The notes under the pieces are model-generated. The model made no database searches, was not told where the DNA came from, and worked only from the letters and a program-made list of their open reading frames with translations. This document shows, in pieces, positions 5,280-56,262 of a DNA stretch of 57,428 nt. How positions within the stretch are numbered: position 1 is the stretch's first letter; every line of letters begins with the position of its first letter. Origin of the DNA: Spirogloea muscicola (taxonomy: Eukaryota; Streptophyta; Zygnematophyceae; Spirogloeales; Spirogloeaceae); assembly GCA_009602725.1 (NCBI GenBank), contig WELB01000037.1, positions 111,279-168,706 on the forward strand. Reading direction: 5' to 3'. Position numbers and translations under genes: made by a program.

Positions 5280-5322
5280 GGCCTCTCCCAGCCACCATAT
5301 GAACTGGTGGCTGGGAGAGGCC
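5280..5322. repeat. Perfect 18-bp inverted repeat of two retroelement tails
   Basis: Arms 5280-5297 and 5305-5322 are exact reverse complements around a 7-base loop. The right arm is the start of a minus-sense tail unit (GGTGGCTGGGA...). The left arm is the same segment in plus sense. The repeat therefore looks like two copies of the 3' hairpin module joined head to head. Confidence 0.85.
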
Positions 5323-5389
5323 AGCCCAAAGGAATGGACAAGGTCTGAGACTAAGACGGACGCTGTTTCCAAAGGGGGCGGGGCTGTGG

Positions 5390-5870
5390 AAAGAGAAAGT
5401 GCTCGCCCATTGAGAATAGGGGCTGGAAAAACCAGCCCGAAAAAGAATGAACAGAGTACGAGAAGGGGGAAGCGCTAAGAAACAGAAGCAAAGCAGCTAC
5501 AAATCACTCAGTAACCTCTGCTAAGCAGCCGCAGGTCGGAGAAGCTAGGCTCGTTGAAGTGGGTCCCCTGGCCAGAGCCAGAGGCAGCAGCGAGGGCTCG
5601 GCCGGCACGAAGGTGCAACGCCCGGGCCATAGACCTCTGCAGCGAGACGGCCAGGCGCATTCGATACACTTGCGCCAGCGACCCGGCTGCAGGGAAGTCG
5701 ACCGGCTCCCCCTGGAAGCGACGGGCGATGGTGTGGCGAGCGAGCTGGGTGAGCAACTCGAGCCACCGAGCGCCCAGCGCCCCATGGGTATCAATGGCCA
5801 ACGGGAAGAACTCGTCTTCCCGCGGATGGTCTGCGCGTCTTTATCTCGGATCTGCATCTCCTGTCTAGAG
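5390..5870 (-). mobile_element. Non-LTR retroelement 3' end (endonuclease-like C-terminus plus hairpin tail)
   Basis: Read on the minus strand, about 97 codons end at a stop near 5508 and contain the family hallmark FPLAIDTHGALGARWLELL followed by SLAQVYRMRLAVSLQRS and an Ala-rich end. The same block recurs at 12.0-12.2, 20.1-20.4, 40.6-40.9 and 55.9-56.2 kb. After the stop comes a roughly 100-base 3'UTR ending in the hairpin GGGCTGG-AAAAA-CCAGCCC (plus-strand reading, 5420-5438) and the terminal string GGGCGAGCACTTTC (minus). No poly(A) is seen. The copy is 5' truncated. Confidence 0.75.
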
Positions 5871-6300
5871 GTTACTGAGCGTCTTAGTCCTAGTCGTTCG
5901 CACTCAGGCTCCCTCAGCCCTTGTCCATTCGTTTGGGCTGGCCTTTCCCAGCCACCAGTCAATCTGGCCGCGCTTTCTTCGTCCATTGAGGATAGGGGCT
6001 GGACAAGCCAGCCCAAAAAAGAATGAACAAAGAACGAGAAGGGGGCCAGAGGAAGCCAGAGGAAGCGCTAAGAAACCAAAGCAGACAAAGAAAGAAAGCA
6101 GCTACAAATCACTCAGTAACCCCTGCTAAGCAGCCGCAAATCAGAGAGGCTAGGGTCCTGGAAGTAGTTTCTTCGTCTTTTCCAGCCACCTATCCTTAAC
6201 GGGCGAGCACTTTCTTCTGAGGCAGCACCTTCCTGGTGGCTGGCCTTTCCCAGCCACCAGTCAATCTGGCCGCGCTTCTTCTTTGATTGGAAGAGCTGAC
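5871..6300. mobile_element. Mosaic of retroelement 3' tail units in both orientations
   Basis: Three or more tail fragments are joined here. A plus-sense unit with the GGCTGG/CCAGCC hairpin (near 5936-5953) is followed by CCAGTCAATCTGG and GGCCGCGCTT. A minus-sense unit of the other tail type covers about 5985-6170. A further plus-sense pair (terminal GGGCGAGCACTTTC near 6200, then another hairpin near 6238-6277) follows. No protein-coding portion remains. Confidence 0.7.
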
Positions 6301-6414
6301 TCTTCGTAACATGAGGTGATGTGCAGTCGGTCGACTTATCCGTCGGGGGGGGCGCGTCGCCGTCCCGTTCTGACGTCGTCCCGAACTCCCCAGGCGGCGG
6401 CGGCGCGCGCCGCC

Positions 6415-8178
6415 ATGGCCGTCGCGGGTGCGAGGCTCCGGCGCGCCGCGGCGGCGGCGGCGGTGGTGCTGGNGGCGCTGCGGCTCAACGGCGGCGCGGA
6501 GAGCCGCAGCTTCGCCGCCTGCCGCTCCTGCTCCTCCGGCGCCCTCAGGGCCTCCTTCCTCGTCAGGCCTCCCTCCTCTCCCTCCCTGCCCTCCGGACCC
6601 CGCCGGCAGCTCTGTGACCCCGCTGCCCCCACCTCGGCTGCCCGCAGTGGACGTACGACAACGAGACGGCGACGCTGGACGGCGCGGTGTGGGCGCCGTC
6701 GTGGGCCGGCTACATCGGCTGGGGCGCCGCGCGCCACATGCGCGGCGCCGACGCGCTCGTTGGCTTCCAGGCCGGCGACCGCGGGCCCTACGTCGCCCAG
6801 TACCACCTGACGTCGTACCTGGCCAAGGACATCCTCCCCCACACTGGCGGCCTCGACGTCGTCCCGGGCAGCCTCTCGGTGGGCCACCGCCGCCGCCGGC
6901 GGTGCTGGCCGGCGCTCGCACGCGGAGGGCGCCGTCCTGACCGCCGCAGTGGCAATGCCGCCGCGCAGCTGCGATCAGAGGGCGGCAGCGTGTACATGCT
7001 CTTCCAGCTGCGCAACTGGGAACCGCCGGCGGGGCCGGGCTGGGTCATCGTTGCCACGGGGTCAGTGCACGCGGCCCTCACCGCAGACCAGAATCATTCT
7101 CGTGATCTAACGCCTGCTATGCCCGAAAAAATGCTTCAGCTTTCTGAGTCTTCGATTGCTCTCGGCATTCTGAGCTGTGCGCGGCTCCTTCATAGCTTTG
7201 AGCGATTGACTCTGGCCATCGTGCAATGAGGACAGGCCTGGCGGCAACACGACCTCCGGCATGCTCCTGCAGCACAACCCCCATCTTGCCGCCGCCTTCA
7301 ACGTCGACTGGCACCTCGGTGCGCTCGCTTGACCGAATGCCGTCAGTTGCCAGTGCTGTTTGCAGCTTCCCAAGGGCTGACCCTTGCAATGCCGCTGCCG
7401 CTGGCGAGTGTTGCCAGGCCTGCCACGAGCTGGCGGTGAAGAGGCAGGCATGGACGACAGCGGCGACGATGACGAGGGGCCGGGGCACGAGCTGGCGGCG
7501 AGCGCGCACGGGCTGGTTAACGTGATCGCGTGGGGCTTGCTCATGCCGCTCGGTGTCGTCGTCGCCAGCCACTTCAAGCACGAGGACCCGCTGTGGTTCC
7601 ACGTGCACCGAGGCGTGCAGTCTGTTGCCTTCGCGCTCGGCGCGCTCGGCCTCGCCTCGGGCCTCCTCCTCACCGCTGACCACGCCGAGTCGGCCTTTCC
7701 CGTGCACCGCCAACTTGGCATCGGCCTCGTCGTCCTCGCCTCACTGCAGGTGCGAGCACCGCGCAGTGGCCTGCCCAGCTGCTGACGGCTTTGACCTCAA
7801 AGAAAGCTCTGCGGTTGGCTCCGGAGGTCGAGCGCTGTGGCTGGTGGCTAGGGATAACCCCTGACCAGATTTGAGTTTCAAACTTGAAGGATTGCGTACT
7901 GGCTGCTCATGAGGCAGGTGCTTGCAATAGTCGCTCGTCCAGACGAGGACGGCAACGTGCGGAGGCTGTTGACCCTGGCGCACATGGGGACTGGGCGCCA
8001 GGTGCTGCTGATGGCGGTCATAAACATCTACCAGGGCCTGGAGGCCATTGGCGCCAGCACGCTGTGGACGGGCGCCTACACTGCCGCGCTGGCAGCCATC
8101 CTCGTCACCAATATGGTGCTGGGACGGTGGCGGCTTCGGGCATGGCTTGCGCATGAGGAACCGCGCAGCCTGCTTTAG
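6415..8178 (+). CDS. DOMON domain plus cytochrome b561 transmembrane electron-transfer protein
   Basis: Probable ascorbate-dependent transmembrane electron carrier (CYB561-DOMON family; plasma membrane in plants), moving electrons to extracellular ferric or radical acceptors. The first exon (6415-6561) encodes an Arg/Ala-rich signal-like N-terminus; one N at 6473 leaves one codon unknown. The exon from 6648 carries the DOMON core (WTYDNETATLDG ... GYIGWGAARHMRGADALVGF), continued by YMLFQL near 6990. The exon at 7236-7318 links to the b561 exons 7448-7749 and 7918-8178. Candidate haem histidines lie in AHGLVN, WFHVHRG, VHRQLGIGL and LAHMGTGR, with hydrophobic helices between. Joins after 7061 keep frame. 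The join between about 6878 and 6950 does not resolve cleanly, so that exon border is uncertain. The gene converges on the SMEK gene. Confidence 0.85.
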
Positions 8179-8559
8179 CTGCGTGCCCCGACCTGGGCGG
8201 CGGCTTGGTGGGGCTACGGCCGCCTTGCGGCGAACGCCTCCACCAGCCACAGCGACAGCGCGGCTGCTGCAGAGCTCAAGTCTCTCAACAGCGGCGCACT
8301 GTCCAGCAGCCTGCCTTAGATCAAGGCCGGCAGCTTCATTACTATTTTGCTGCCATTGCTTGCTGCCACCAGCCGAGGATGCTGAGCGAGCACCCTGTTC
8401 ACTTGCAACAGTGGAGGGGAGGGTCTGGCCATTAGACCCATCTTCATTGCCAAGCCCCGCAAGCGAGGCGGGGGCTCAGGAGGAGGGGGGTTTTGGCGCA
8501 TTGGACGGTCCAGCTTGTGGAGGTGACTATGCATACAGAGCTACTAAGGAGGCCCCGGG

Positions 8560-8603
<44 letters not shown>

Positions 8604-8629
8604 CGTCAGCGGCGGCGGTGCGGTGGCGG
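8179..8629. other. Convergent intergenic region
   Basis: This lies between the stop of the DOMON-b561 gene and the stop of the minus-strand SMEK gene. It must hold both 3'UTRs. The only striking structure is the long G tract at 8563-8603. No gene is seen. Confidence 0.6.
8563..8603. repeat. 41-base G homopolymer
   Basis: An uninterrupted run of G on the plus strand (C on the sense strand of the SMEK gene), about 30 bases past the SMEK stop. It could form G-quadruplexes. Its length is hard to sequence and may be inexact. Confidence 0.9.
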
Positions 8630-11010
8630 CTATCGGACCGTGTACGGCTCCGTCAGGACGGCCGCCATGCCGCCAAGCGGCCCGCTGGCTGCTGCAGCAG
8701 CGCCGCTGCCCACGCCGTCTGGGGACGCCCCTCGCTTGCCGCTGCTTGCTGGGTCAAGCGGCCTTCGCTGCTGCAGCTCCACAGAATCGAGCGGATCCGC
8801 GCTGCCCTCGCCCCCGCCGCCACTGCCAATGTGGCCGTTGTTGTCGTCTTCCTGCCGCCATGGGGGCCGGCGGCCGTGGTCAGCATCCCACTCGCCGGCC
8901 TGCTGCGATCGCCCCTCCACCCCTGTGCCGTGATCTGCGGCCGCCGGCGGCTCCTCCTTCCGGTGGCGCTTGACCTCCAGGCCGCGCTCTTTGGCCTCCT
9001 TGACTGCGGACAGCGAGCTCCGCTTTCGTGGGGATGTGGCACCTGTGGCCGCGGCGGCTGGCGATCTCACTGCCGGCTGCTCACGCAAGGGCGACGAACC
9101 GGCTGCCTCGTCCTCGTCTTCGTCCTCATAGTCCACCAGGCCAAAGCCCTCGCCTGACCTTCCGCTGCCGGGTTACCAATGGAGACACGCATCATCAGTC
9201 AAGGGCCACGGCAGCTTCAATGTGGGGCGAGACAAGAGCTGCCCAAGAAGGCTTACCCATTAAGAAGCACGGCAGGTGGCAGCGGCGGTTGCCGCGGCTT
9301 CATGGGCGCGGGTGCAGACGCCGTATCCTCCTCCTCATCACTGCCATCCAACCAGGCAGCTCGGATGTTGTCAGCCAAAGCCCAAGGCACAGCTCGCCAG
9401 TGGCCAGAAGGCGGCCGAGGCCTGTGGAGCCACAGGCCTTACCTGTCCTCGTTGAAATAGTCCTCCTCGGACTTGTCAGGCGCACGCTCGTCACGTCGTC
9501 GCCAATCGGTCATAAAACCCAGCCGCCCACCACCGCCGCCTGCCGGCGCAGCGCCGTTGCCGGCGTCCCTGCCGCTGGTGCTGGCTCCCCCCTCACCACC
9601 CGGCATGCCAGCTGCTGCAGTGGGGCCGCCTCCTCCTGCACCCCCATCAGCTGTCGCCACGACAGGGACAACACTCCAGTAAGGCATGAGGACACTGGTG
9701 CCTGCAGCGATGGGAAGGACCAGCAACTGCATGGTCAGGATGGCCGATTTCAAGGCACCGCTGAGCCAGCCAGGATGACCAACCTGATCGTACTTCAGCC
9801 TGAGCAGCTGGAACGAGTCCACATAGTCCACCTCAGAAAGCTTGTCGCCGTGTTTCTCAACCAAGTGAATAATCAAGCTCCGTAGATTCTCCTGCACAGG
9901 TGTCATGGACCCTCTTCAATTCAGGCCGGGCATCATGGACACGGTTCAGTGGAGAAAAGGCAGTAGTGTCCTCTATCTGCAAGCCGCATCAATATCGTCT
10001 TGACAGGGAGCATTAGCGCTCATTGCAGCAGAGGGTTCACCTTGCGAAGAAAGTCAACAAGCTTGATGAAGGCAGAATTTAGGAGGTTGTATCGTGAGCC
10101 ATTGCTCAGGAATGCCTTGACGACTGGGTCAAAAAGAGAATGCTGTACAATTTGATTGGCATAGAAGAGATCCTGCACATGCCTCAGCATCGTCACGCTG
10201 TCAGCCAAATCTAGGGCCATCGTTTGACAACCGTCGTCCACCGCGATTGGCATTGCATGTCACCTTGCTGAACTGCATATGGTGATGAACGTGAGCGAGG
10301 GGAAGAAGGCGACCTTCAGTCCAATACATGTGCGCAGGAATCGCAGGGCCGCAACAATAAGGAAGCGCTCACGACGCTTTGTCAGTTGCAGCACCTTCTC
10401 CACTAGATTCTTGCGCAGCACGTGGTTCCTGCAGCAAATCAAGTTTGGTATTGAGTCACCCATGTCCTTGATCGCTTGATAATCTAAGCCAGGGAGCTGG
10501 TTTTCGGCTTGCGCCTAGGGGAAGAGGGAGACAGAGACCCACTTGATGCGGAATGAATGATGTTGCACGCAGAAATTCAGCAGCTCAATGTGTTGCCCAC
10601 AATCTCGGGCACTAGGGGAGGGCTTGTGGGGTTTGTGATCGCATTCAATAAGAGATCCATGTAATTGGTGTAGAACACCTCCAGAAATTCGCTCTTCTCT
10701 GCTTGCTGCTTGCAGCCATGATTAAAAAGAGTAAGAACAAGCCCCAATTCAGGCAAAGGGCTCCTACTTACTTCTGCTGTGCGAGCGATCTGGTAGGCAA
10801 GATGAAGACCTTAACTTGCAAAGAGACTCATAATGCATTGCCGCAACACACGCGACCTATGATTGAGACAGCGAACATGCACAAAGCAAGACCGACGGTG
10901 GGCACGTGCATGTGTAAGTTCTGGGGCTGACCACGTCCATCGTGTCAGAGTCAAGGAGCATGCGCATCATCTCCAGCAGCTGTACTTGAAGGCCGCCCTC
11001 GCTGGACATC
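8630..11010 (-). CDS. PP4R3: Protein phosphatase 4 regulatory subunit 3 (SMEK/PSY2), 5' incomplete
   Basis: Targeting subunit of the PP4 phosphatase complex, acting in DNA-damage response and, in plants, small-RNA biogenesis. Exons recognised on the minus strand, 5' to 3': near 10930-11010 (LLEMMRMLLDSDTM), about 10520-10690 (FLEVFYTNYMDLL ... ELLNFCVQHHSFRIK), 10314-10428 (RERFLIVAALRFLRTCIGLK), 10041-10172 (NGSRYNLLNSAFIKLVDFLRK), 9784-9891 (KLSEVDYVDSFQLLRLKYDQ), an exon ending at 9443 (SEEDYFNED), 9257-9340 and 8630-9164. The last exon holds the acidic LVDYEDEDEDE stretch and a low-complexity tail. The N-terminal PH/EVH1-like part is not found and probably lies in or beyond the assembly gap. 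The exon at about 10520-10690 needs a one-base frame change. The 5' border of the exon ending at 9443 is unresolved. Confidence 0.88.
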
Positions 11011-11367
11011 AGCCTCAGTCACACTGAAGCTGTGCTTTCTGAGCACTGCTATCCGCTATCCGGCAGGCACCTGACCTCAGATAGGCTGGAGGCCACATTA
11101 TGCCTCAAAGTGCCTGCAGAGGAGGAGCAGGAGCAGCTGGTGGTGCCAGTGGTGGCGAGGGAGGTCGGGCGCTCTCACGCAAGGTGAGACGAGGACGACG
11201 TGGACATCGGTGCGCTGCGCGGGGCCTGTGGAGGGCGGGCTCCACTGCAAGCTCCAGGCGGGGGCAGGCGGCTCGGAGCTGGCGGCGGCGCGGGAGCACC
11301 CGCAGGCGGGTGCAGCGTGGGCAGGGGGCGCAGCCGGCGGGCGCGGCGAGGGCGGAGGGAGCAGGGC
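11011..11367. other. GC-rich sequence beside the assembly gap
   Basis: This should contain upstream exon or intron sequence of the minus-strand SMEK gene. Frames are open on both strands because of base composition. No convincing family motif is seen, so no exon is called. Confidence 0.4.
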
Positions 11368-11845
11368 NNNNNNNNNNNNNNNNNNNNNNNNNNNNNNNNN
11401 NNNNNNNNNNNNNNNNNNNNNNNNNNNNNNNNNNNNNNNNNNNNNNNNNNNNNNNNNNNNNNNNNNNNNNNNNNNNNNNNNNNNNNNNNNNNNNNNNNNN
11501 NNNNNNNNNNNNNNNNNNNNNNNNNNNNNNNNNNNNNNNNNNNNNNNNNNNNNNNNNNNNNNNNNNNNNNNNNNNNNNNNNNNNNNNNNNNNNNNNNNNN
11601 NNNNNNNNNNNNNNNNNNNNNNNNNNNNNNNNNNNNNNNNNNNNNNNNNNNNNNNNNNNNNNNNNNNNNNNNNNNNNNNNNNNNNNNNNNNNNNNNNNNN
11701 NNNNNNNNNNNNNNNNNNNNNNNNNNNNNNNNNNNNNNNNNNNNNNNNNNNNNNNNNNNNNNNNNNNNNNNNNNNNNNNNNNNNNNNNNNNNNNNNNNNN
11801 NNNNNNNNNNNNNNNNNNNNNNNNNNNNNNNNNNNNNNNNNNNNN
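11368..11845. other. Assembly gap (478 N)
   Basis: A run of N. It separates the truncated 5' end of the SMEK gene from a retroelement tail. Long repeats at its right edge may explain the break. Open frames that cross it are meaningless. Confidence 0.99.
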
Positions 11846-12290
11846 AGGCTCGCCCATAAAGAAAGAGGGGCTGGCAAAGCCAGCCCAAAAAGAATGGACA
11901 ATGTCCAAAGCCGAAGAATGAGAAGCCGAGGAAGGACTCCTCTACTCTACCAAACACGACAACATACTAGGGAAGCTCAGTACCCGCGAGTGAGCAACAT
12001 CAGGTCCGAGTAGCTCGAGGCAGGGAAGGAGGCACTCCGCCGAGACCCGGAGGCCGCGGCCAGAGCGCGTCCTGCGCGCGTGTGGATAGCGTGGGCAAGG
12101 GATCGCTGGGTGAGCAGCTCGAGCCACCGAGCGCCCAGCGCCCCATGTGTGTCAATGGCCAACGGGAAGAACTCGTCTTCCCGGATGATCTGCGTACTTC
12201 AGCTCTTTGGCCCGAGCTGCGCAGGCGACCGCATACCCAGCCGTGGTGGCACATTTGGAAAGCCAGCGCAGGAGGTGTGTGGCCACAAGG
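11846..12290 (-). mobile_element. Retroelement 3' end, minus sense
   Basis: Read on the minus strand, the coding remnant runs through AVACAARAKELKYADHP and the hallmark FPLAIDTHGALGARWLELLTQ to a stop near 11977. It contains an internal deletion relative to the 5.5-5.8 kb copy: the FQGEPVDF segment is missing. After the stop the sequence reaches the GGGCTGG/CCAGCC hairpin (about 11868-11887) and runs into the gap. The upstream part extends further into the protein than the 5.5 kb copy does. Confidence 0.75.
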
Positions 12291-12373
12291 GCCGTCACAA
12301 GCCCCCCCCCGGAACCCTAAACCCTGGGAACCCCAATTTGGGCCACCCGAGAAGCAAGTGCTCAGGGCCGTCC

Positions 12374-15081: not shown

Positions 15082-18000
15082 TTAGTTCGTAATGCACGTC
15101 CGGAAGCAGTCGCCGAGCTGGGGGTAGTGGCCTGACTTGCAGCAGACGTAGCACCTCCGCAGCTTGGCGACGGCCGTCATTCCGGGATACCGGCAGTCGA
15201 CGAAGGCCGGCGGCGGTGGCAAGGGCGGGGGTGACAGGGAATCTGTGGACGTTGTCTTGGGGGCGGGCGGAGGAGGTGGCGGTGGAGACTGAGGAGGCGG
15301 CGGCGGCGGCGGCGGCGGGAATGGAGGCGGCGGCGGTGACGCCAGCGGCGGTGGGCTGGGCAAGCCCTTTCCATAAGCGTTGGGGATGTCCCACGGCGGC
15401 CGGACGTTCCCCGGCAGTGTGGGCAGCGGGCGCAGCCAGCTCCGGCCATTGATGAAGTCGACGGTGATCCAGGCCTTGATCTGGGCCGGCGTCAAAGTCC
15501 GCTCCCATCCCACGCGGCCCTCCTTGTTGGCGCCAATGCCGTAGTTGTTGTACTCGGCATAGAAGGATGTGAGTTGGCGGGAGTGGATGCCAAAGTCCTG
15601 CCAGCCTGCACAGGCAAGGCAAGCAGAAGAAGGTAAGTAAGTCAGTATCTGCTTAGCTTACTTAGCCCGTGATCCTGCAGTGTGCCCCAGCAAGCAAAGC
15701 CACAAAATCCCAGCTCTCTGCTGAAGTCCATGCAATTCTACTCCACCGGTAAAGCCTTGGATTGGACTCCTGACATATGACGCAACCACTCAGACCTCTG
15801 ATTGACACAGCAGGAGCAAGCATTTGTGAATGACAGCAGCAGGCATTTAATTACCATCTGCCATGACCACGTTGTCCATGTACATGTTTGCAAAGATTGT
15901 GAAGGCGTACTTGCCCCAGGCCCTCCCCAGCCAGCCCTGAGATTTAAGAGTTGCCCGGTCAGTATTAAGCATCTATTGGACAAGGTATACTCTTGATCAG
16001 GCAGGCTACCAGCTGACCCCTTAAGCCCCTTTTGACACAGGTATTGCATACACGAGCGGACGACGTTGTGCATGATACGTCATTATGCCAGATGAGGCAG
16101 ACTGTCTGGGCTTGGGCAGCAAGCTAGCTCACCTGGTTTGTGCCTGTGACAACGCCTCGATTGAAAACGAAGCCGCTGTCTTGGGTGGAATACACCTTGT
16201 GCTGTGCAGTAATGCCTGCAAAGCATCCAGGATGGAGTGTATTCAAGGAAGCACTTAGAGACATGGAGTTTACCATTAACCTTTATGATTTAGGGTTAGG
16301 GTTTAGGGTTTAGGTCAGAGGCTGAAGAAGGTCATGGTAGTGTACTTTAAAATATGGTAGTGCAGTAAAGACATTGTCATGCTCTTGCAGGGGCAGTGCT
16401 CTGGAAGCACCCAATGAGCGGAAGGGTGTGAGCATGCAAACATGCCAAAAAAGTCAGACGTGCTCACCAGCGTAACCAAGTGATGATATATTCATAACAC
16501 AATCCTCAAAGTATGCCTTTGCACCACCAAAGATAAAATCAATGTTGCCCGTGAAGTAGCAATTCTTGAAGTATTGCTGGAAGTTCTGGGCATACAAGCT
16601 ATCCTGCTCAGCAGGCAGGAAGAAGGATAGAAAAGGAGAAGTAAGAGAAGGTTCACATGTGACCTGTGATAGTTGAAAATGTTAATGCATTATCAATGCA
16701 AAACCAGTGCAGAGCGTGCAAATCTCCAATCCAATATTGACAAGTATGCCCTACTATAATAGGCTCCACGAATGCAAATCCCTGCAGAGTAACAGGTCCT
16801 CTTACTAGCATAATTGCAAAAGGAAATAGACAACAATCATATAGTGATATGGCAACAAGCACCTGGAAGGAGATGACACTACAGTTGACCAGCATTGCGC
16901 GAGGGCCGTTCAAGCGCAACGCCACTGACTGCAGCCCAGAATGATTTGACAACAGAAAGATTGAAATCAGTAGGCTGGTGAGGCTGAGCTCATCCAGACT
17001 AACATGGGTTAACCAAGCTGCACTTCACAGTCAGACAAAATACAACAGGAGAGCTACATATCTCTGAGGCAGAGCATCGCAAGCTCCATAAATTCATCTT
17101 CAATTAGACAGGACGAGGCCGGCCCAATCAGACATCACCAGACCCGAGCTCAACATGAGAGGCAAGAAATACAGCAGACCTGCATTGGACCTGAATGCGA
17201 AGGTGCCAGGAACTAGGTGCAAGATTCTGCCTTTCAACATTACCTGGCGGTCATAGGTGTTCGGCGCCGGCCGTTTGGCATCGTTGCGGAAGATGAGGTT
17301 GATTCCTGTGAAGTCATTGCCGAGGACAATGATAGAACCAGAGCCCGACGTAGTGAGGGGATTGCCCATGGCATCGAGGAGAGCTGAGTACTTGTTGAAT
17401 GCTAGAATCGTCTTCCCCGGGTCACCAATGAGCGTAACAAAATTCTGCACACCACAGAAGCACTCAAGCAGACTATGAAGTTGCTGTACTAGAGCTGCTC
17501 CAAGCTAACGAAGCATGACTGATGAGCAACAAGAAGTTGCAATGAGAGGACCAATTGCAGCTGACAAACTTCGTATCACCAAGCAATCACCCCAGCTTAT
17601 AGCGAGTCTACTAACAGTTTACATGGGGAGACAAGAAGCGGCCAAAGAGGAGGATGATAAGCCCCCTTTCCCCCACCTGAGTTTTGTTGAAGATGACCGA
17701 CTCATTGTAGAAGCCTGCTTTTATGTACACAATGGTCGTCTGGGAAATAGACGTGGCTCCAGAACGGATGTGCTGGGCTGCAGCCTGCACAGACCAGACG
17801 TGGGACGCAATCGAGGAGGTGAGGAGCCAGTGGGACAAGGCAGCAGCAGGGCTTTGCACGACGGTGCGACTGGCCTGCAGTAAGCCGGCCAGACCGTGAC
17901 AGTCACCGTGACAGTCACTGTGAATCTCCACTGCCTGCGGAAGCCCTTGGTACTGCCGACATCTTGCCACACGGCGGAAGAGCCGGTCGGAGGCCCTTGC

Positions 18001-18548: not shown

Positions 18549-18602
18549 AGCACAGCCGCCGGCGCCGAAGCAAGAGACAACAGCGGCGGCTGCGGCGGTG
18601 GA

Positions 18603-18634
<32 letters not shown>

Positions 18635-19184: not shown

Positions 19185-19470
19185 TGACTACTCGTTCTGG
19201 CGGTCCATTGCCCCACGCCTTGCACCTGCGTGCTGTCCGTGCTCTCGCTGCAGCCTCTGGCTTCCCGTCAGAGCAATTGCTTTCCGGCAGCTAGTCTGTC
19301 GGTTTTGAGGCTCCTCACTCGTAGCCACTGTGTGGTTCATCCTACACCAGCTCTGAGATCGCGCTTTTGGCCCCTCCGTAGTCTGGCCCCTTCGAACCTT
19401 GTCAATCCTCTTCGGGCTGGCTTATCACAGCCCTTGCTTGCCCCCGATGGTGGAGCCATTTCTCTTTTCA
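19185..19470 (+). mobile_element. Retroelement 3' end, third tail type
   Basis: The plus-sense reading LPHALHLRAVRALAAASG matches the end of the retroelement protein (compare MARALHLRAGRALAAASG at 5.6 kb, minus). It is followed by a 3'UTR containing GGCCCCT...CGAACCTTGTCAA and the hairpin GGGCTGGCTTATCACAGCCC (near 19420-19440). The same 3'UTR type recurs at 20.4-20.56 kb. Confidence 0.65.
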
Positions 19471-19488
19471 CGGCTGGGGCTGGCATCT

Positions 19489-19887
19489 CTGAGGAGGTCG
19501 TGGGCAGCGGTGCGTTCACCTCCAGTCGCGCAGCGGAGGACATGCGCCGCCAACTGTGCTGGATCTGCCGACCGCTCGCACTGGAGCACGCCCTGGAGAC
19601 AGGACGAGGGGAGTCCCAGCAGGCGATGGATTGCCGTGCGGAAGAGCTCCTCCCCTGGCGCGGCGGCTTGGCTCTCCGCCCTTCCGGTCTACGACGCACT
19701 GAGGACGCCGGATGACCTCTTCCGCACGGCAAATCCAGCGCCTGCTGGATCTTCCCCCGCCCGGTCTCCAGGGCGTGCTGCAGTGCGAGTGCGGGGAGCG
19801 GTCGGCGGATCCAGCAGAGTAGGCGGCGCATGTCCTCCACTGCGCGACTGGAGGTGAACGCACTGCTGCCCACGACCTCCTCAAAGA
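19489..19887. repeat. Long inverted repeat of retroelement knuckle region
   Basis: The left arm (about 19489-19650) and right arm (about 19712-19887) are reverse complements of roughly 165 bases, by eye close to nine bases in ten identical, around a spacer of about 60 bases. Both encode the stretch around the retroelement zinc knuckle. The right arm reads LQCECGERSADPAE in plus sense. The left arm has lost a few bases so that its second knuckle Cys is missing. Confidence 0.8.
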
Positions 19888-20565
19888 AACCATGTTCGGC
19901 AATTTGCTGGAGGCGGAGTACACAGTGGCGATGGCGAATACGTCCGTTATGCCCATCCTGCAGAAGGCAGATGGACTGCACACTCGGCGCGTCGACTTGG
20001 TAGCCTCCACGCCGGGCGGCGGCGTGCGCATCATTGCAGCACCAATGTGGTGGATCGTTCCAATCCGGGGCTTTCTGCCTCGAGGGCTGGCCATGCTGCG
20101 GCGAACGCCGCTCGCGCAAGGCGGCGAAACACGCAGACCACCCGGCTGGGGACGAGTTCGTGCTTCTGGCCGTGGATGTGCACGGGGCTCTTGGATCCCA
20201 GTGGCTCGACCTGTTAGCCAGGCTTGCGCGGCGGGCTGTGTCCCACAGGCGAGGTGAGCAGGCTGACTCCAGCGCCGCTGGCTCGCTAGGTCTATCGCAT
20301 GCGTCTTACCGTCTCCCTTCAGCGGTCCACGGCCCACGCCTTGCACCTGCGTGCTGGCCATGCTCTCGCCTCAGCCTCTGGCTTTCGTCAGGGGGATTGC
20401 TTTCCGGCAGCTAGTCTTTTGGATCTGCGGCTCGTGGCTTGAGGTTGTTTAGTTGGTTCCATCCTACCCCAGACCAGAGACAGTGCTTCTGGCCCCTTCG
20501 AACCTTGTCAAATCTTCTCGGGCTGGCTTTTCTCAGCCCTTGCCCCCATTGGGAGAGCACTACAT
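19712..20565 (+). mobile_element. Retroelement C-terminal remnant with endonuclease-like region and tail
   Basis: In order: FRT...QRLLDLPPPGLQGVLQCECG and the H...C end of the knuckle (interrupted by one TAG); IMPILQKADGLHTRRVDLV, resembling the R-x-D start of a restriction-like endonuclease; after frame changes, DEFVLLAVDVHGALGSQWLDLLARLARR; and the end SAVHGPRLAPACW. The 3'UTR ends in the hairpin GGGCTGGCTTTTCTCAGCCC near 20520-20540. Frameshifts and stops make it a pseudogene. Confidence 0.75.
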
Positions 20566-20900
20566 GTCACAGCCCCCTTTGGGAGCGCCACTTTCTCTCT
20601 TTCCACAACCCCTCACTTTCTCCAGTAAGGGTAGTAGGGCTACTTCTTCTTTTCACATCCATCGCTCCCTTTGTGGAAAAGCTCTCTCAGCAGTGCACTT
20701 CTGGTGCTTTTTCTCTTTCCATTCTACTTTTAGCTGGACTTGAATAGGCCATTGCCCGCTTCTTGGAAAAAGCTTGCATCCGTCTTTCCGGCCCCCTGTA
20801 AATGCTTTTGCGAGCTCGCCCTTCTGCAGGCCTCGCCCCCTTCGCTTATTTCTTTTGGACTGGCCTCTCACAGCTATTGCTATCTAGTCTGAGGAGCTCT
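20566..20900 (+). mobile_element. Degenerate tail-like repeats
   Basis: T- and C-rich sequence with weak copies of the tail pattern, the clearest being TTTGGACTGGCCTCTCACAGC near 20850-20875. It is probably decayed tails of the third type. Assignment is by pattern only. Confidence 0.4.
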
Positions 20901-21849: not shown

Positions 21850-22035
21850 GCTACTTCTTGGGCCTTGTCCATTCTCTCATGGGCTGGCCTTTTACTGCCA
21901 TCGCCCCTTCGAGACAAAACAGTTTGTCTCAAAGGGTATCCTTGAAATATTTCAGTCTGGAGCTCTGGGCCTTGTTCATTCTTCTGTGGGCTGGCCTCTC
22001 CCAGCCACCAGTTAATCTGGCCGCGCTTGTGATTC
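21850..22035 (+). mobile_element. Two tandem retroelement tail units
   Basis: The first unit has CTTGTCCATTC...GGGCTGGCC (near 21865-21895), followed by a second stem GAGACAAA/TTTGTCTC. The second unit (21965-22030) has GGGCTGGCCTCTCCCAGCC, then CCAGTTAATCTGG and GGCCGCGCTT. Confidence 0.7.
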
Positions 22036-32159: not shown

Positions 32160-32193
32160 AGCGAGGCGGGTGCTGTCAAGACTCGTGTGTGCT

Positions 32194-33524
32194 CTATGCC
32201 GTCCTCTCACTGCGGCTCCGCTTTTTGCTATGCCTGTCTTCTTTCAAGCCGTCGAGACCAGAGTCAGAAGAGGACGAACCATCACTGCCAGCGCCGGTCC
32301 TCCCCTTTCTCTCCTTCCGGCGCCGCACCTTCTGCTGCTGCTCCTCCTCCCTCCTCCGCTTCTTCCTCTCCTTGCGCCGCTTCTCCTCCTCCAACTTTGC
32401 AATCACGGCCAGTGCCTCCTCCACGGTTGACACCTTGTCGGGAAGATCTACGGCGTGCCTCTCACGCCTCTTGTGCTTCTTCTTGCTGCCTCTTGCTGTC
32501 GCTTTTCCCCCGCCATCACCGCAATCCCCGCCCTCGGAGGCGTGGCCAATGGGAGGCCGCTCCCCGCCAATGCCAACGCCGTGCTTCATCCACGCCGGCT
32601 GCACCATTCCCATGCCTCGACCCCGTGGAACTCCCAGTGGCACTGCCAAGCCAGCCGATATGATCTCCTTGACGTGTGCGCCATTCTCTACACGTTCAGC
32701 GGCAGGCTGGGCGGACCGCATCAGCTGGGCATCATCCTCGTCTGGGAGCAGATCGTATGTCTTTGCGCCGAGCTGCACGTAGCACTCGGTCTTGAGGTGG
32801 CCGTGCCCGCCGCACCGCGTGCATGACACGTTCAGCACCGCACCCAGCTCCATCTGCACCCGCCAACTTGTGACGTCTCTTCAAAACTTGGGCTTCAAGA
32901 ACTGCATTAAGGTCAGACCCTAGACCCCAAATCCTAAACCATAACCGTAAACTCAGGAAAGTATGGGCTGTGAGTCACTCGCCGATGGCGGCCGCGCACC
33001 TTGGGCCGGTCCTGCCACGGCGGGCGGGCCTGCTGCTGCTCCAGCTCCACGTTGTTGGCGTCGAGGTCGGCGCCGTCCTTCTGCGACACGTACTTGATGC
33101 TGCACGACAGCTTGGCGCCGGCGTCGTCGTGCTTGATGGCAATGACCTTGACCCAGACCTGGTCGCCCTCACCGGTGACGGCGGCCAGCGCCTCCACCTT
33201 GGCTGCGTCCGGGTCGTTGCGCCGCGTCACCTCGTGGGCGCTCACTTGCGAGACGTGTACAAGGCCGTGCCGCCGGAACCCCACCAGCTCCACGAACACG
33301 CCGAACGGGCGCACCGAGCGCACGCGCGCCTGGTGGATGGAGTACAGCTCCGGCAGCGCCTCCGCTGCGCCGCCGCCGCCGCCGCCGCGCCCGCCATTGC
33401 CATCGCCATTGCCGCCGCCGCCGCCGCCGCCGCCAAGCCGGGAGGGGTTTTGGCAGCGGGAGGAGGCCCTATCCAAACGCAATCCCGCCTGAATGGGAGC
33501 CAACCCCGGTGTGGAGCGCGGCAT
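32194..33524 (-). CDS. S1 and CCHC zinc-knuckle nucleolar protein (ZCCHC17/pNO40-like)
   Basis: Two exons on the minus strand (33000-33524 and 32194-32853) join in phase to give about 394 residues. After a Gly-rich N-terminus comes an S1 RNA-binding domain: LYSIHQARVRSVRPFGVFVEL, HGLVHVSQVSAHEV, GDQVWVKVIAI, KLSCSIKYV. The second exon opens with a C-x2-C-x4-H-x4-C knuckle (CTRCGGHGHLKTEC) and ends in a Lys/Arg/Glu-rich coiled, nuclear-localising tail with a Ser-rich stop region. In animals the family acts in ribosome biogenesis and splicing control. A similar role here is inferred. Telomere-like motifs occur in the intron (near 32921-32955). Confidence 0.88.
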
Positions 33525-35240: not shown

Positions 35241-35285
<45 letters not shown>

Positions 35286-35399: not shown

Positions 35400-35401
35400 C
35401 A

Positions 35402-41570: not shown

Positions 41571-41639
41571 TTGCAAATAGCCCACACTCCGGCCTCAGAT
41601 CAGAATGTTGCTGAATGCCGTGCTTCCGTCAGGGCGACG

Positions 41640-42970
41640 TCTTACCGCCTGCTAGCTGTTCAGTCTTGCATCTTTTGACTAGAGGTTACTGAGAGTCTCC
41701 TTGCTTGAATTCTAGTCCTTAGCACTCCGGCTCCTTCAGACCTTGTCCATTCCTTTGGGCTGGCCTCTCCCGGCCACCAGTTAATCTGGCCGCGCTTGCT
41801 CCTTGCATTGGGTCCGGGCCTACAAACCGACGTGGACGTCATCAAGCGTCGCACAGGAGGATGGGTTCCCAGCAGGTCTGGATGGGGCTTGGAACTCAGG
41901 AGAGAAGCTTCTTTCGCATGGGGCAGTGTCTGTAAAGGGCCAGCCAAAGAAAGAAATAGCTTTCCAATGTATGGCTGTGAGAAGAAAGGCTGGCTTTGCC
42001 AGCCCCTCTTCTCTATGGGCGAGCACTTTCTTCTGTGAGAGGCCAGACCAAAGGAATGAACAAGGTTTGAAAGGGCCGGAAGGCGCACAGAAGGATGGAC
42101 AAGGCCAGACAGAATAGCTCCTCCAGTGTAAGAAAAAGAAAGCGCGGCCAGATTGACTGGTGGCTGGGAAAGGCCAGCCCGAAGGGATGGACAGAGTCTG
42201 AAGGAGCCGGAGTGCGAAGGACTAGGACTAAGACATCAGCCAGGGAACGCTCATTAACCTCTAGTCAGGAGTCCAGTGTAAGGCAGTGGCTGTGAAAGGC
42301 CAGCCCAAAGCGATGTCCAAGATACTAGTCTGCAAGACGTCAGCAGAAGGCGCATGATAGAAGAACAGCTCTTCCATATGTCTCGTAGCAGCTTTGTTTC
42401 TGTTACTTAGCGCTTCCCCTGGCCCCCTTCTCGTACTCTGTTCATTCTTTTTCGGGCTGGTTGTTCCAGCCCCTATTCTCAATGGGCGAGCACTTTCTTC
42501 CATATTAAGGCAGTGGTTGTGAAAGGCCAGCGCCAAAAGCCTCTGGTCAGCAAGTGCCAAATCAGAACAACCAGATGGAAGTGGGAAAGCGCAAAGCACA
42601 AAGGAACCGAAGAAAGTGCTCGCGCCCGAGAATAGGGGCTGGAAAAGCCAGCCCAAAAAAGAATGAACAGAGTACGAGAAGGGGGCCAGGGGAAGCGCTA
42701 AGAAAAAGAATGAGCTCGCCCATAGAAGAAAGTGCTCGCCCATTGAGAATAGGGGCTGGAACAACCAGCCCGAAAAAGAACGAACAAAGTACGAGAAGGG
42801 GGCCAGGGGAAGTAGAAGAGAGGGGCTGGCAGAAGCCAGCCAAAAAAGAATGGACAAAATCCAAAGAGCTACAGGAGAATCACTCAGTAACCTCTGCTAA
42901 GCAGCCGCAGGTCGGAGATGCTAGGCTCGTTGAAGTGGGTCCCCTGGCCAGAGCCAGGGGCAGCAGCGAG
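41640..42970. mobile_element. Dense mosaic of retroelement tails in both orientations
   Basis: At least eight tail units: plus sense near 41680-41800, 41985-42030 and 42420-42500; minus sense near 42125-42250, 42285-42310, 42600-42700, 42725-42800 and 42820-42960. Tail types alternate and share endpoints GGGCGAGCACTTTC or GGCCGCGCTT. The last minus unit keeps the first bases of the coding end. No complete protein region is present. Confidence 0.75.
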
Positions 42971-44217
42971 GGCGAGAAAAACAACACACAGAGAAACAAA
43001 GCAGCTACGGATCACTCACCGAAGCTGTCAGGTCTCGAGCACCCGGGCCAGAGCCCGGGACCCCCGCCTCGCGGCGAAGAATCTGGAGCCAGGCCAGATT
43101 CTCGGCACCACCGCCCGCTCTCTTGGCGGCATGCGGGGGGCCCTGACGCCACCGCCCCCGGCGTGTCTGGCGCCCGCCGTCCGGCAGCCCGGGCGGGGGG
43201 CCCGTTAAATTGAAATCAATTGTCCCTGGAATGAGCTCGGTGGACCTCCCGCTCCGGGAAGCCGTGACCGGGACCAAAATCACCGGGGGGAAACGGTGAC
43301 GAATGCTGCCCCGCCGGTTAGAGGCCCAGATTGACCTGTCAGGCCCGTGATGGAAATCGGTGATGCACCCCCCTCCTCACCCTCCCTCCCCCCACCCTCT
43401 CTCCCCGCGCTCCCCTCCGGGCGCCCAGCGTGGGCCCTCCCCGCGGAGGAGGGGGGGGGGGGAGGGAGGNTTTCGCTCGCGCCGGGCCGGCGGCGCGCCA
43501 TCCGCCCTCTGGCCAGAAGGTCGCGCGACGGCCGGGCGTGCCGCTCGTCGCCCCCCCCCTGCGCTGCTGGGAGGTCGCGCGACGGCCTGAGGGCGTGGCG
43601 GCGAGCGGCACGTCGCTATCGCTCGACCAGAGCCGTGGATTGTCGACGGGACCAGTGGGCCTGGACGATGGGACCGCTGTGACCGAGGGGGCTTTCGACG
43701 TGCTGGCCCTGAGTACTGCAATTGGGAACGAGCGAGAAGTCAGGTGCGGAACAGCTTGCCACGCTGACGAAGGCTCACTCCTCGTACGTCAGGACGTGCT
43801 CTTACTATCAGTCTGATGGAATTGGCATTTTTAGGTTTGGCCGTCCAAGGAATGGCTTGCATACGGCCATTAGCTAGTGTGGATATCTTACTTGAAGCAC
43901 GACACGGTGAAGCTTGGCTGGGTCCTGCGGTGCTGTGCTTCGACCTAGCAGGGTCCAAGCCGGATTAGCATGTTCCGGTACCTCTTGCAAGCCCAAGTAT
44001 AGGTGTCACTAGTCTATGCATGACTTCAGCAGATGTGAGATAGAAGCATTATCTGAGCGGCTGGGCTCTCCATTCCACCCTCACTGATTTGAAATGCAGG
44101 TGGTCTTTGCAGATGGGGCTCGCTAGGTGACTGTATTCTCGACCCCGAGCCCCTTGGGAGGCCCTGGGATGTCAGGACACTGGAAGGGCAAGCAGGGCTC
44201 CGCAGGGGCCACTTGAG
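42971..44217. other. GC-rich 5' flank of the PRAF gene
   Basis: A GC-rich block (about 43020-43650) with G and C runs and one N (43470), then AT-richer sequence up to the PRAF start. It probably holds a promoter and 5'UTR. Open frames on both strands are compositional and match nothing. Confidence 0.45.
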
Positions 44218-52532: not shown

Positions 52533-53984
52533 CCTTCTGACGACTAGTGATTCTTCCCAAGCTCTCCCTGTGCCCCACCTGTACTGCTTCAGTACTCCTT
52601 TAGGCCCCTATCGTCTGCAACACATTCTTCAAGGGCGCGACTTACCGTGCTCAAGGTTGTGCCGTGCCCTTCACCCTGGCTTTATCATCCTAGACTCACC
52701 AGGCTGTGAAGCAGTAGCCCTGATCGTTTTGCCACTACCAGGTTACTGGTACAAAACACTTGGTACTTAATTCCGGGATCAGTTTATATCTAGTCCTCAA
52801 TTCACGTCAAAATTATTGCAATCATTGCCAGATGTGTTTGACGGAGACAATACAACTTATTGGAGATGCTGTTTTTATGTATGGCGTGCTATGGTGCTTG
52901 GTTATGTCAGGCATGGTTTAAGCCTCAAGTGCTCAAGAGGTGGGAGACTCAGTGCTTGTTTCTGGACTCCCAAGGCCGGGATCAAAGAATGGCAATTGAG
53001 CATGAAAGGCCGAGTTGCACGTTGAGCTTGTCTCCCAACAGCTTGTACAATGTCACAGTTGTTGCTACCTGAGAATGGTTGATGGGTAGATAGTGAGGCG
53101 TCATATACCTGGATGTCAACTTCTCGGCGAGATGAGTGAATTGGTGAGTCTCTGGAATTCATGTAGGAGCCCAAGATTTGGGATGGCAGTCCAATGCAGC
53201 TTGGAGCAGTTCCGGCAAAGCTCTTCACCAGCTCGGCTGCTGGCTGTGATGTGGTGCTGTCGCTTAACCCGCTGCTATTGCGGCCGATAGTGATTTGCCA
53301 ATGGAAGATAATTGCCGACAGACATGTCAGACGTCTGCAGTGCTACCATCACGAGACACGGAGGCTATCCCGTGCAACTTCTGTGACAGCACACCAAGAT
53401 GGCCGCACGGCCTTGCTAATGCAGCTGAGCATCGAGTGCCACTGTCATCCTGCAAGCCCAAACTCGTTCGAGAGTGGTGTATGTGGGCTGGCCCAACATG
53501 CAGCAACCTGCGTCCGATTAGCCAGTCACAGCTCCACCTCTCGGCTGAGTCACCAGTCTTGCTCCACCATTCGGCAAAGTAACAAGTGAGAGCTTCGGCC
53601 AAGAGGGCCACGGCCGGGTCAAGAGGGTCACGGCTGGGAATGGCCAGCGCGGGCTGAGTGCAAAGATGGGGCGGGACGGAGCCAGCAGAGAAGGCCGGCG
53701 CAGCTTTACAAACAGGCTGCAGCGGACGTATACACCACCTGAGAGATTGCGAGACAAGGGTTGTGCCTGACTGGGGACCGGACGGGCCGGTGCAGGAGGA
53801 CAAGCTCTTTGGGGCGAGAGCCTGAGGCGGCAGCCGCCGCCCGACGAGCTGCAAAGGTATGTGGGAATGGAGGCGAGTGGGCGACGAGACGGCCGGAGAC
53901 GCAGATCGAGGAGCTGGGTGCTCGCCCGCTCGCCGGGCCTGCCGCCGCGGCGGGCAGGCGCGGCGAGTGCTGAGAAGCTCCCTG
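52533..53984. other. PRAF 3' flank, nothing recognised
   Basis: Only short frames without family features. The stretch 53.6-53.98 kb becomes GC-rich and leads into retroelement tails. Confidence 0.5.
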
Positions 53985-55959
53985 CCGCCAAAGCTTGCTC
54001 TGAAGAAAGTGCTCGCCCATTGAGAATAGGGGCTGGAACAACCAGCCCGAAAAAGAATGAACAGAGTACGAGAAGGGGGCCAGGGGAAGCGCTAAGTAAC
54101 AGAAACAAAGCTGCTACGAGACACTCAGTAACCCCTGCTAAGCAGCCGCAGATCAGAGATGCTGGGCTGAAGCTTGCTCTCACAGCCACTGCTCTCAATC
54201 CATTCTTTTGGGCTGGCCTTTCCCAGCCACCAGTCAATCTGAAGAAAGTGCTCGCCCATTGATTGATCTGGCCGCGCTTCCTCTCAATCGGTTACTAGAG
54301 GTTACTAGGACTAGAGGTTACTGAGCGTTTCCTGGCTGATGTCTTAGTCCAAGTCCTTCGCACTCCGGCTCCTTCTGACTTTGTCCCATTTTTTGGGCTG
54401 GCCTTTCCCAGCCACCAGTCAATAGTGCCGCGCTTTCTTTCCGGGCTGGCTTATTTCAGTTGACCTTAGCACTCCGGCTTCTTCAGACCTTGTGCATTCC
54501 TTTCGGCTGGCCTGTCCCAGCCACCAATTAATGTGGCCGCGCTTGCTTCTCAATTTGGACGCGCTGTTTCTCTCAGTGTCGCTGACCTGCGGCTGCTCAC
54601 TTGGGGAACTATTCGTGTATTTGAAACAAACGAAGGCCAAATGGCTCAAGTACAAAGGCAAGCACAGATAAAGACCTACATAACCTACAGCAGATAAAGA
54701 CCGCTCAGTAACCACGGGTCAAAACATAAAGGTCACTAATCGATGCCTGAATACTAGATGTCAGATACTAAACTCTTCTGCCACCAATTAGAGCTTGCTC
54801 AGCTTTCTAGTACAAGGCATTCGCCTGAGCACGCTGCAAACAGGCCGAAACTCGTCGCCGCAAGAACGACAGATAAGCAGCTGGCAAGCCCATCTCAGCC
54901 GGAAACACATCTGCACGACGTTGATATTGAACACCCGTGGCCAATCGAGTCGCTGTGTGCCATAGCGCTTCTCTGTGTTTTCTTCTTCTTCTCTTTTCTT
55001 CAGCTTGTGGCTCCCTCATGAACACCTGAATGCTATTTGGCTGGCCCTTTACAGCGTCTCACTTAATCTCAGCAGCCGCATTCTGTTGCCTGGCCTTTTC
55101 GAAGTGTGTGGCCATCCACAGCCATCGCTCTCTGATAGAAGACTCTTCCGGAGTAGAAGACTCTTTCTTTCTCTTTCAGTCTCCCTCTCCGAATGAGCGG
55201 AAGAAGGGCTCCCCTATGGAGGATGGATGCTGGAAAAAGCCAGCCCAAAAAAAGAATCAACTAAGGACGAGAAGGGGGCCAGGGGAAGCACTAAGAAAAA
55301 CAAGCACAAAAAGAAAATAAGCAGCTACGAAGCACTCAGTAACCTCTGCTAAGCAGCCTCAAGTTAGAGAGACTGGGTTCCTGGAGCTGGTCCCCTGGCC
55401 AGAGCCAGAGCAGCAGCGAGGGCTCTGCCGGCACACAGGTGCAGCGCGCGGGCCACAGAAGAAAGTGCTCGCCCATTGAGAATAGGGGCTGGAAAAGCCA
55501 GCCCAAAAAAGAATGAACAGAGTACGAGAAGGGGGCCAGGGGAAGCGCTAAGAAAAACAAGCACACAGAGAACCAAAGCAGCTACGAATCACTCAGTAAC
55601 CTCTGCTAAGCAGCCGCAGGTCGGAGATGCTAGGCTCGTGGAAGTGGGTCCCCTGGCCAGAGCCATAGACCTCTGCAGCGAGACTGCCAAGCGGCGCATG
55701 TGGTACACCTGCGCTAGCGACCCGGCTGCATGGAAGCAAGCGCGGCCACTTTAACTGGTGGCTGGGAGAGGCCAGCCCAAAGAAGAAAGGGCTCGCCCAT
55801 TGAGGATAGGGGCTGGACAAGCCAGCCCAAAAAAGAATGAACAAAGAACGAGAAGGGGGCCAGAGGAAGCCAGAGGAAGCGCTAAGAAACCAAAGCACAC
55901 AAAGAAAGAAAGCAGCTACAAATTACTCAGTAACCCCTGCTAAGCAGCCGCAAATCAGA
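53985..55959. mobile_element. Retroelement tail mosaic with nested and deleted copies
   Basis: Minus-sense units start near 53998, 55215, 55462 and 55783, each beginning GAAAGTGCTCGCCC or close to it. Plus-sense units with GGCTGG hairpins lie near 54200-54275, 54385-54470, 54495-54540 and 55035. Short coding ends of the element (compare 5.5-5.7 kb) survive near 55370-55460 and 55590-55740. The latter carries an internal deletion. Between 54.56 and 54.98 kb lies a stretch with no assignable content. Confidence 0.7.
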
Positions 55960-56262
55960 GAGGCTAGGGTCCTGGAAGTGGGTCCCCTGGACAGAGCCAG
56001 AGGCAGCAGCGAGGGCTCTCCCGGCCCAGCCCAAAGGAATGCACAAGGTCTGAAGGAGATGGAAGTCCACCGGCTCCCCATGGAAGCGGGCGGACAATGA
56101 CGTCACGTGAGAGCTGGTTGAGCAACATCAAGCCACCGAGCGCCCCTCGCCCCGTGCGTATCAATGGCGAGCGGGAAGAACTCGTCTTCCCGCGGGTGAT
56201 CTGCATATCTGAGCTCCTTGACCCGAGCGGCGCAGGCTACCGCACACCCAGCCTTGGCGGCT
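55960..56262 (-). mobile_element. Retroelement endonuclease-like end, 5' truncated, minus sense
   Basis: The minus reading CAVACAARVKELRYADHPREDEF then FPLAIDTHGARGARWLD matches the 12.0-12.3 kb copy, followed by degenerate sequence to the usual coding end. Its truncated 5' end abuts the plus-sense reverse transcriptase fragment at about 56262. Confidence 0.75.

Follow-up and report, generated by a model that had tools for sequence, protein, structure and literature searches.

How does a retroelement without a poly(A) tail mark the end of its RNA for its own reverse transcriptase (RT)? The question is raised by a 57,428-nt stretch of the genome of Spirogloea muscicola (contig WELB01000037.1, positions 111,279-168,706, in the 153-Mb, 471-contig assembly GCA_009602725.1), the whole of which is called the window here. 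An initial annotation, made from the letters alone, described in it about 30 copies of a conserved tail and attributed them to one retroelement family. We find that the tail is carried by at least four related families of long interspersed nuclear elements (LINEs A, B, E and F), in which it lies shortly past the stop codon, and that it is conserved beyond neutral sites, third codon positions being nearly saturated. We read it, with a probability of about 0.73, as a 3′-terminal recognition handle for target-primed reverse transcription of these LINEs, which look like the type with a restriction-like endonuclease (RLE).

Copies of the tail and the LINEs that carry it

The tail extends over about 54 nt, from a box near TTGTCCATTC through a T-rich spacer to the hairpin GGGCTGG..CCAGCC (P1), a further 9-10 nt and a terminus near UGGnnGnGC. 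Profile models of each tail type, with 7 of the 65 training rows taken from the window, recovered 33 window tails at E<1e-3 (38 at the looser E<1e-2) and 0 when the window was reversed, which upholds the figure of about 30. The exact hairpin GGCTGG..CCAGCC occurs 20 times in the window (0.19 expected), and the box CTTGTCCATTC 15 times with at most one mismatch (0.87 expected); exact in only 4 of the 15, this box is shared more loosely than had been claimed. Genome-wide, exact patterns of chosen cores, which miss decayed copies, gave 1,518 matches for B, 582 for E, 2,159 for A and 1,255 for F, a total of 5,514, while the reversed-control patterns gave 0 for each of the four. An Rfam scan of locus L024, locus L029 and the window returned 0 matches at gathering; at about 1000-1350 of L024, tails adjoin sequence resembling the 3′ end of 18S rRNA.

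LINE-B was found via the open frame at 5.5 kb of the window, and LINE-A, LINE-E and LINE-F via two further queries. Among 150 matches scored of 18,756 candidates, 15 LINE-B copies have frames of 1,243-1,403 codons, and in nine LINE-B copies selected for a long frame the box and P1 follow the stop codon in 9 of 9 and the complete terminus in 8 of 9 (L034 breaks off earlier). In eight representatives the stop codon is followed by a poorly conserved 3′ untranslated region (UTR) of 53-86 nt and then by the tail; in some copies, for example L057, L061 and L067, the element end is broken by another insertion. The three attachments of tails to coding ends reported at 5.5, 12.0 and 20.4 kb all exist, but they best match LINE-B, LINE-E and LINE-F, respectively, and a single element family is rejected as owner. 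Tail types track protein groups, with amino-acid identity of 0.81-0.88 within and 0.59-0.72 between them. The LINE-C frame at the window's right edge was considered as owner and rejected, because its intact relatives end differently: nine LINE-C copies have a 1,267-codon frame, and 7 of 7 examined end in TTGTAC-TTGGCC..GGCC-..-ACACG. Intact elements lacking the tail, which the annotation had named, beside an absence of significant covariation, as evidence against its reading, are found in part, in a related family with another tail. In this sister family (L009-L028, L069-L088) one subgroup gains a second predicted hairpin, UUCGU..ACGAA, and another lacks it.

Conservation was measured on B, A1-A3, E1-E3 and F1, eight representatives whose C-terminal frame spans 250 codons or more. 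Between tail types, identity is 66-85% in the tails, 36-45% at third codon positions and 46-63% in the UTR from stop codon to box, where shuffled sequence gives 43-52% and the B-A pairs are highest. Over the 28 pairs, mean identity is 0.77 for the tail, 0.56 for the UTR and 0.45 for third codon positions, and the tail exceeds both in 28 of 28; these pairs, though not independent of one another, all point the same way.

The tails and LINE pieces of the window are as follows (window positions; "profile" marks a match to a tail profile model).

5295..5341, minus strand: type A tail, match stops short of the terminus (profile)
5401..5453, minus strand: type B tail behind a LINE-B coding end (profile, E 1.3e-17)
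5511..5840, minus strand: LINE-B C-terminal coding end (endonuclease end), 95% identity to the L029 copy
5921..5973, plus strand: type A tail with hairpin GGCTGG/CCAGCC and stem CCAG/CTGG (profile, predicted fold)
5979..6030, minus strand: type B′ tail, facing the type A tail at 5921..5973 (profile)
6230..6275, plus strand: type A tail, match begins within the model (profile)
11848..11900, minus strand: type E tail, adjoining an assembly gap (N, 11368-11845) (profile)
11980..12177, minus strand: C-terminal coding end, best match LINE-E (55%, gapped match)
12182-12259, minus strand: LINE-B-like piece just upstream of the 12.0 kb coding end
19399..19450, plus strand: type F tail (profile)
19682..20436, plus strand: LINE-F coding end, in four pieces
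20505..20558, plus strand: type F tail behind LINE-F (profile)
21972..22026, plus strand: type A tail (profile)
41743..41795, plus strand: type A tail behind a short LINE-A coding end (41624-41689, plus strand) (profile)
41988..42024, plus strand: type E tail only, a copy of about 42 nt from the hairpin base, with a shared 8-nt flank word CTGTGAGA
42142..42193, minus strand: type A tail of a 132-nt copy with an 11-nt duplication CTTACACTGGA (profile, flank search)
42439..42491, plus strand: type B tail of a 117-nt copy with a 10-nt duplication TCTTCCATAT (profile, flank search)
42622..42669, minus strand: type B tail (profile)
42734..42786, minus strand: type B tail (profile)
42813..42856, minus strand: type E-like tail, match stops short of the terminus (profile)
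42887..42973, minus strand: LINE-B coding end
54011..54063, minus strand: type B tail of a 162-nt copy with an 11-nt duplication AGAGCAAGCTT (profile, flank search)
54199..54241, plus strand: type A tail, interrupted by about 20 nt of a type B tail end (profile)
54383..54433, plus strand: type A tail (profile)
54490..54542, plus strand: type A tail (profile)
55208..55261, minus strand: type B tail, decayed (profile)
55467..55519, minus strand: type B tail (profile)
55740..55782, minus strand: type A tail immediately downstream of a B′ tail, match begins within the model (profile)
55791..55844, minus strand: type B′ tail (profile)
55930..56100, minus strand: LINE-B coding end
56341..57426, plus strand: LINE-C, reverse-transcriptase to linker part; its relatives' tail differs (GGCC hairpin, ACACG)

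At 5.3-6.3, 41.7-42.9 and 54-56.1 kb the tails are clustered, facing or directly succeeding one another, as if the T/C-rich ends of older copies were favored insertion sites. The roughly 20 nt inside the type A tail at 54199-54241 are the very end of a type B tail, reversed, and possibly represent an extremely truncated insertion. The window also holds a pectinesterase-like frame (15082-15657, minus strand; PF01095, 9e-6, slightly under the curated cut-off), which hints at a host of the plant lineage, and a frame with an S1 RNA-binding domain (32934-33524, minus strand; PF00575, 7e-8). Across contigs C1-C6 the LINE families appear to occupy separate blocks: on C2, 13 of 13 B and 18 of 18 A2 cores lie below 1.5 Mb, and 11 of 11 A1 and 13 of 15 F cores above it, and C5 carries 36 F cores and no B. 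In 250-kb bins, the overlap of B and F is lower than under permutation (20 against 32, p 0.019), with a rank correlation of -0.22 that is not significant (p 0.13). This partition is a lead, no more, to the subgenomes of a hybrid or polyploid.

Predicted folds of the tail

Eighteen representative tails were folded, including members from L025 and L026, taken without a check for an upstream LINE frame, and from L054 and L066, in which the frame is broken. We compared two models of the second helix: a local helix (P2), in which the bases after P1 pair with the terminus in the register CCAG/CUGG in A and CUAU/AUGG in B, and a box:terminus helix that encloses P1. A pseudoknot between box and terminus across the first hairpin, also considered, proved to be a nested helix. 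P1 is paired in 102 of 108 cells and almost invariant, and its predicted probability in B/E tails is 0.99-1.00. Most B/E tails have the box:terminus helix as their minimum-energy fold. In the B/E set 183 of its 189 cells are paired, and its probability is 0.78-0.99 in each of the 10 B/E representatives, compared with 0.00 for local P2. RNAalifold also returns this helix as the consensus, both for the pooled 18 (z -5.5 vs column shuffles) and for the 10 B/E representatives (z -6.0), and B/E tails are more stable than shuffles (z -2.6 to -4.6). In four A representatives local P2 has probabilities of 0.95, 0.53, 0.04 and 0.99, while in four F representatives the homologous P2 has 0.00 and F supports neither model. 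Because the predicted folds differ among B/E, A and F, P1 is modeled as the element common to the families, and the second helix as one that varies from family to family.

The double hairpin had instead been described as two side-by-side stems in every type, the second being CCAG/CTGG or CCC/GGG and selected as structure because it keeps pairing while its bases change. What holds of this is the shared first hairpin and a plausible CCAG/CTGG stem in A, where the side-by-side arrangement is the minimum-energy fold of 6 of 15 tails, two of them with a small extra box hairpin. Across types, 60 of the 72 P2 cells are paired, a value that 0 of 500 shuffles reach (shuffle mean 54.5); R2Tg, the zebra finch R2 element, likewise tolerates pairing-preserving changes in its P2 (PMC12222951). 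However, the only P2 pair changed on both sides, from U-A to G-C (three) or G-U (one), is found in four A tails alone and may thus be one event, and inside the B/E set P2 pairs no better than in shuffles. The CCC/GGG stem does not survive as proposed: in B/E it is a weak alternative to the helix around the first hairpin, which the pooled consensus also adopts. With no clear second helix in F, and LINE-C2 folding without such a stem, we regard selection for two adjacent hairpins in every type as unlikely.

Several results count against a conserved structure as such, and with it against the handle. All column pairs were tested against a tree-preserving null with our own script, built on the idea of R-scape, using 64 distinct rows of a structure-anchored alignment of all but one of 66 tails; no significant covariation was found, with a best E of 2.1, in a test that has little power with few tail types. 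Covariation was accordingly abandoned as proof of structure, and P1 lies beyond its reach because it is almost invariant. The second helix is not a single conserved structure across families. P1 itself has low probability in some A/F tails (0.00 in L066 and L054, 0.19 in L046 and 0.46 in L039), A/F tails do not clearly surpass dinucleotide shuffles in stability (z -0.1 to -1.5), and only weak consensus folds emerge from the A and F sets (z -1.5 to -2.5), the A fold (z -1.5) trading part of P1 for box pairing. In folds of the whole 3′ UTR the box:terminus helix is kept in B, B′, E2 and E3 but absent from the E1, A and F examples; in E1 the box instead folds onto GGAC, and in the A examples it has other pairing partners.

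In type E tails (L047, L048 and the window tail at 11848-11900, minus strand) GGACATT stands before the box, and a third hairpin, GGAC-AUU-GUCC, is possible that competes with the box:terminus pairing (fold shown for L047). More generally, the UGG of the terminus has two possible, mutually exclusive partners, the box and the bases adjoining P1. The tail might then be a two-state handle, with one fold binding the protein and the alternative one freeing the 3′ end to enter the RT, and with co-resident LINE families diverged in the state that they favor; each enzyme would then copy mainly its own RNA. We consider this distinctly unlikely.

Protein architecture and element ends

The LINE-B protein (L029, 1,350 codons) carries two CxxC..H..C motifs near its N-terminus, an RT (Pfam RVT_1, 8e-16), a CxC..H..C knuckle, the series R..D..DVV, and K-E-L-K-Y. 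RVT_1 is the only Pfam match in L029, and the whole open reading frame (ORF) of L010 gives RVT_1 and one weak zinc finger (E up to 0.01). An apurinic/apyrimidinic endonuclease (APE), which L2-clade LINEs carry, was not detected by Pfam in these two whole ORFs at E up to 0.01. Against solved structures, the family RT profile finds R2 best (8e-12), with human L1 ORF2p far behind (2e-4). In 13 C-termini the R, D, DVV and first K are invariant (13/13) and the Y is present in 12; KX2KY is found in 8 of the 13, KX2KH in L046, and KX2HY or KX2YY in four LINE-C rows. In RLE LINEs the first K of KX2KY, after the knuckle, is described as the catalytic lysine (PMC5678591). The two D residues of the endonuclease signature lie 15 apart, compared with 13 in the silk moth element R2Bm (D996, D1009). 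The order of N-terminal zinc finger, RT and Cys/His knuckle in a single ORF agrees with the R2 order (PMC10499050). Two observations speak against placing these proteins with the RLE type: the knuckle is spaced CxC, 11-12, H, 3, C, unlike the published CX2-3CX7-8HX4C, and no solved endonuclease structure was matched by the C-terminal profile. For these two reasons we call the LINE families likely, not proven, to be of RLE type.

Three other assignments were rejected. R2 proper does not fit, as the insertions are not confined to the R2 site in 28S ribosomal DNA (rDNA), with 68 flanks diverse behind the T/C run and the flank words varying among copies; Dualen/RandI, in which APE and RLE are both present (PMC4640811), does not fit two ORFs with no APE match; and the L1 clade, with APE and usually a poly(A) end, fits neither those two ORFs nor the listed ends, which lack poly(A).

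No poly(A) was seen at the element ends inspected, as the annotation had said. The conserved terminus that it described as fixed is present, but a pyrimidine run extends beyond it, with a mean of 7.3 nt in 34 B copies vs 1.5 nt when starting 20 nt further on (in this measurement B and E are overlapping classes, and A is represented by a single row). In copies with duplications of 9-11 nt (AGAGCAAGCTT, CTTACACTGGA and TAAGACATC) TCTTC, TCTTTTT or TCTTTT stands between the terminus and the duplication, and since it is missing before the 5′ copy of the duplication, the T/C run belongs to the element in those three copies; in the copy with the duplication TCTTCCATAT, the run falls inside the duplication. 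The flank search left out L001-L008, and 68 of 122 copies were usable, the rest lacking flanks or containing N. Words of at least 10 nt are common to both flanks in 8 of the 68 (1.3% of mismatched flanks), and words of at least 8 nt in 16 (5.9%); four of the eight long words are tail sequence or low-complexity, and the other four are ordinary sequence. An earlier word search at fixed positions found duplications at 38 of 231 sites against 27 of 205 in the control, no clear improvement. Among the copies listed with a shared word of at least 7 nt, five are only 42-52 nt long, with little beyond P1 and the terminus; each is weak evidence alone, because an ordinary 10-nt duplication is seen in L012 (50 nt) alone.

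A probable handle for target-primed synthesis

The layout that emerges is an ORF of about 1,300 codons, a stop codon, the 3′ UTR, the tail of about 54 nt, the pyrimidine run and, where readable, a duplicated target flank. As a mechanism, we propose that the protein would bind P1 and its flanks in the element RNA, and that the terminus and pyrimidine run, as a single-stranded end, would lead into the RT. Copying would start at the handle on the nicked target strand, and early stops would yield 5′-truncated copies, down to the tail alone. The predicted second helix in this setting would be box:terminus around P1 in B/E and a local CCAG/CTGG beside P1 in A, with F unclear. A handle for target-primed synthesis, the function that the annotation had proposed, is the best supported by position, conservation, truncated copies and likeness to R2, while the argument from the second stem that it had offered is weak.

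The closest comparison is with R2. R2Bm and R2Tg share with these LINEs the zinc finger, RT, knuckle and RLE-like C-terminus in one ORF, the absence of poly(A), and a compact two-stem element near the RNA 3′ end, for which a role in initiation is demonstrated in R2 (PMC10499050, PMC12222951). In R2Bm, a 43-nt two-stem "R2 tag" plus linker performs as efficiently as the entire UTR, and disruption of a stem-1 pair can be rescued by a compensatory change (PMC10499050); in R2Tg, the last 65-67 nt, with two contiguous stems, suffice for initiation, and stem 2 can be changed while pairing is kept (PMC12222951). Common to both systems is a constant first hairpin with a variable second helix. R2, however, inserts at one 28S rDNA site and the tails here at many places; its stems are consecutive, with a linker kinked by an A-A pair, and stem 1 of R2Tg is a pseudoknot, whereas the B/E stems are predicted to be nested; the core strands of R2Bm are spread across a 248-nt UTR, whereas here about 54 contiguous nt are conserved; and the knuckle spacing differs. 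The stringent-type LINEs UnaL2, ZfL2-1 and ZfL2-2 also have a conserved 3′ stem-loop and a short terminal run (PMC4176376; PMC3747384), and the ZfL2 stem-loop of zebrafish is recognized by its cognate protein (PMC4176376), but these are L2-clade elements with one stem-loop. A conserved 3′ tail structure at the template end, the trait of stringent-type LINEs, is supported here too by conservation, P1 pairing and the pooled consensus fold, with no significant covariation. A SINE with the same tail is a frequent, though not an obligatory, companion of such LINEs. Among green-lineage LINEs, conserved 3′ ends are shared by maize and sorghum L1 elements and SINEs (short interspersed nuclear elements), Chlamydomonas L1-1_CR, RandI/Dualen and SINEX pairs; the maize and sorghum hairpin shows compensatory changes, and most plant L1 families have a poly(A) end (PMC3747384). 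Unlike the Chlamydomonas LINE/SINEX pairs, no SINE partner was found around the 209 tails surveyed here.

The tail could alternatively be a signal for 3′-end processing, stability or export of the transcript that the RT does not read specifically. Conservation does not name the partner, and a conserved 3′ structure of this kind would look alike in genomic copies, but the conserved sequence stops only a few bases short of the integration junction and persists in copies truncated to about 42-52 nt, and in R2Bm, R2Tg and zebrafish L2 LINEs this is the place of RT recognition. A transcript signal is on this evidence quite improbable. Recent shared ancestry, or exchange of 3′ ends among LINE families without selection, might also make tails alike, and the families are indeed related and nested in each other, so that exchange is possible; the excess of tail identity over third positions and UTR, and the agreement of tail types with protein groups, make this explanation very unlikely.

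Slimmest of all is the chance that the solo tails are SINEs or other non-autonomous elements borrowing a LINE tail: in a survey of loci selected for LINE matches (209 tails in 185 kb, not a random sample, with L001-L008 left out), 75 tails have no same-direction LINE coding sequence or UTR within 250 nt upstream, but 60 of these 75 upstream stretches contain, on either strand, LINE or tail sequence from a different copy, the remaining 15 have no common body except one 38-nt match, and no SINE sharing the tail was recognized around the 209 tails of this LINE-biased sequence.

Because structured 3′ handles without poly(A) are already known, the tail read as a recognition handle is not of a new kind. 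What is new, as far as can be told, is the combination of several co-resident RLE-like LINE families with a natural handle of 54 nt and a family-specific second helix. Narrow literature queries for RLE-type LINEs in green algae gave no match; the matches of a broad query were left unexamined, and with this partial coverage novelty in print is not established. R2-type enzymes are under development for RNA-templated gene insertion, for which recognition of the 3′ handle is a live question. At least two of the families here have many long open frames, and four carry compact handles about 54 nt long that together run to thousands of copies. One genome would thus offer a natural series of enzyme/handle pairs in which P1 is fixed and the second helix changes, a series in which one can test what part of the handle the enzyme reads and whether neighboring families avoid copying each other's RNA.

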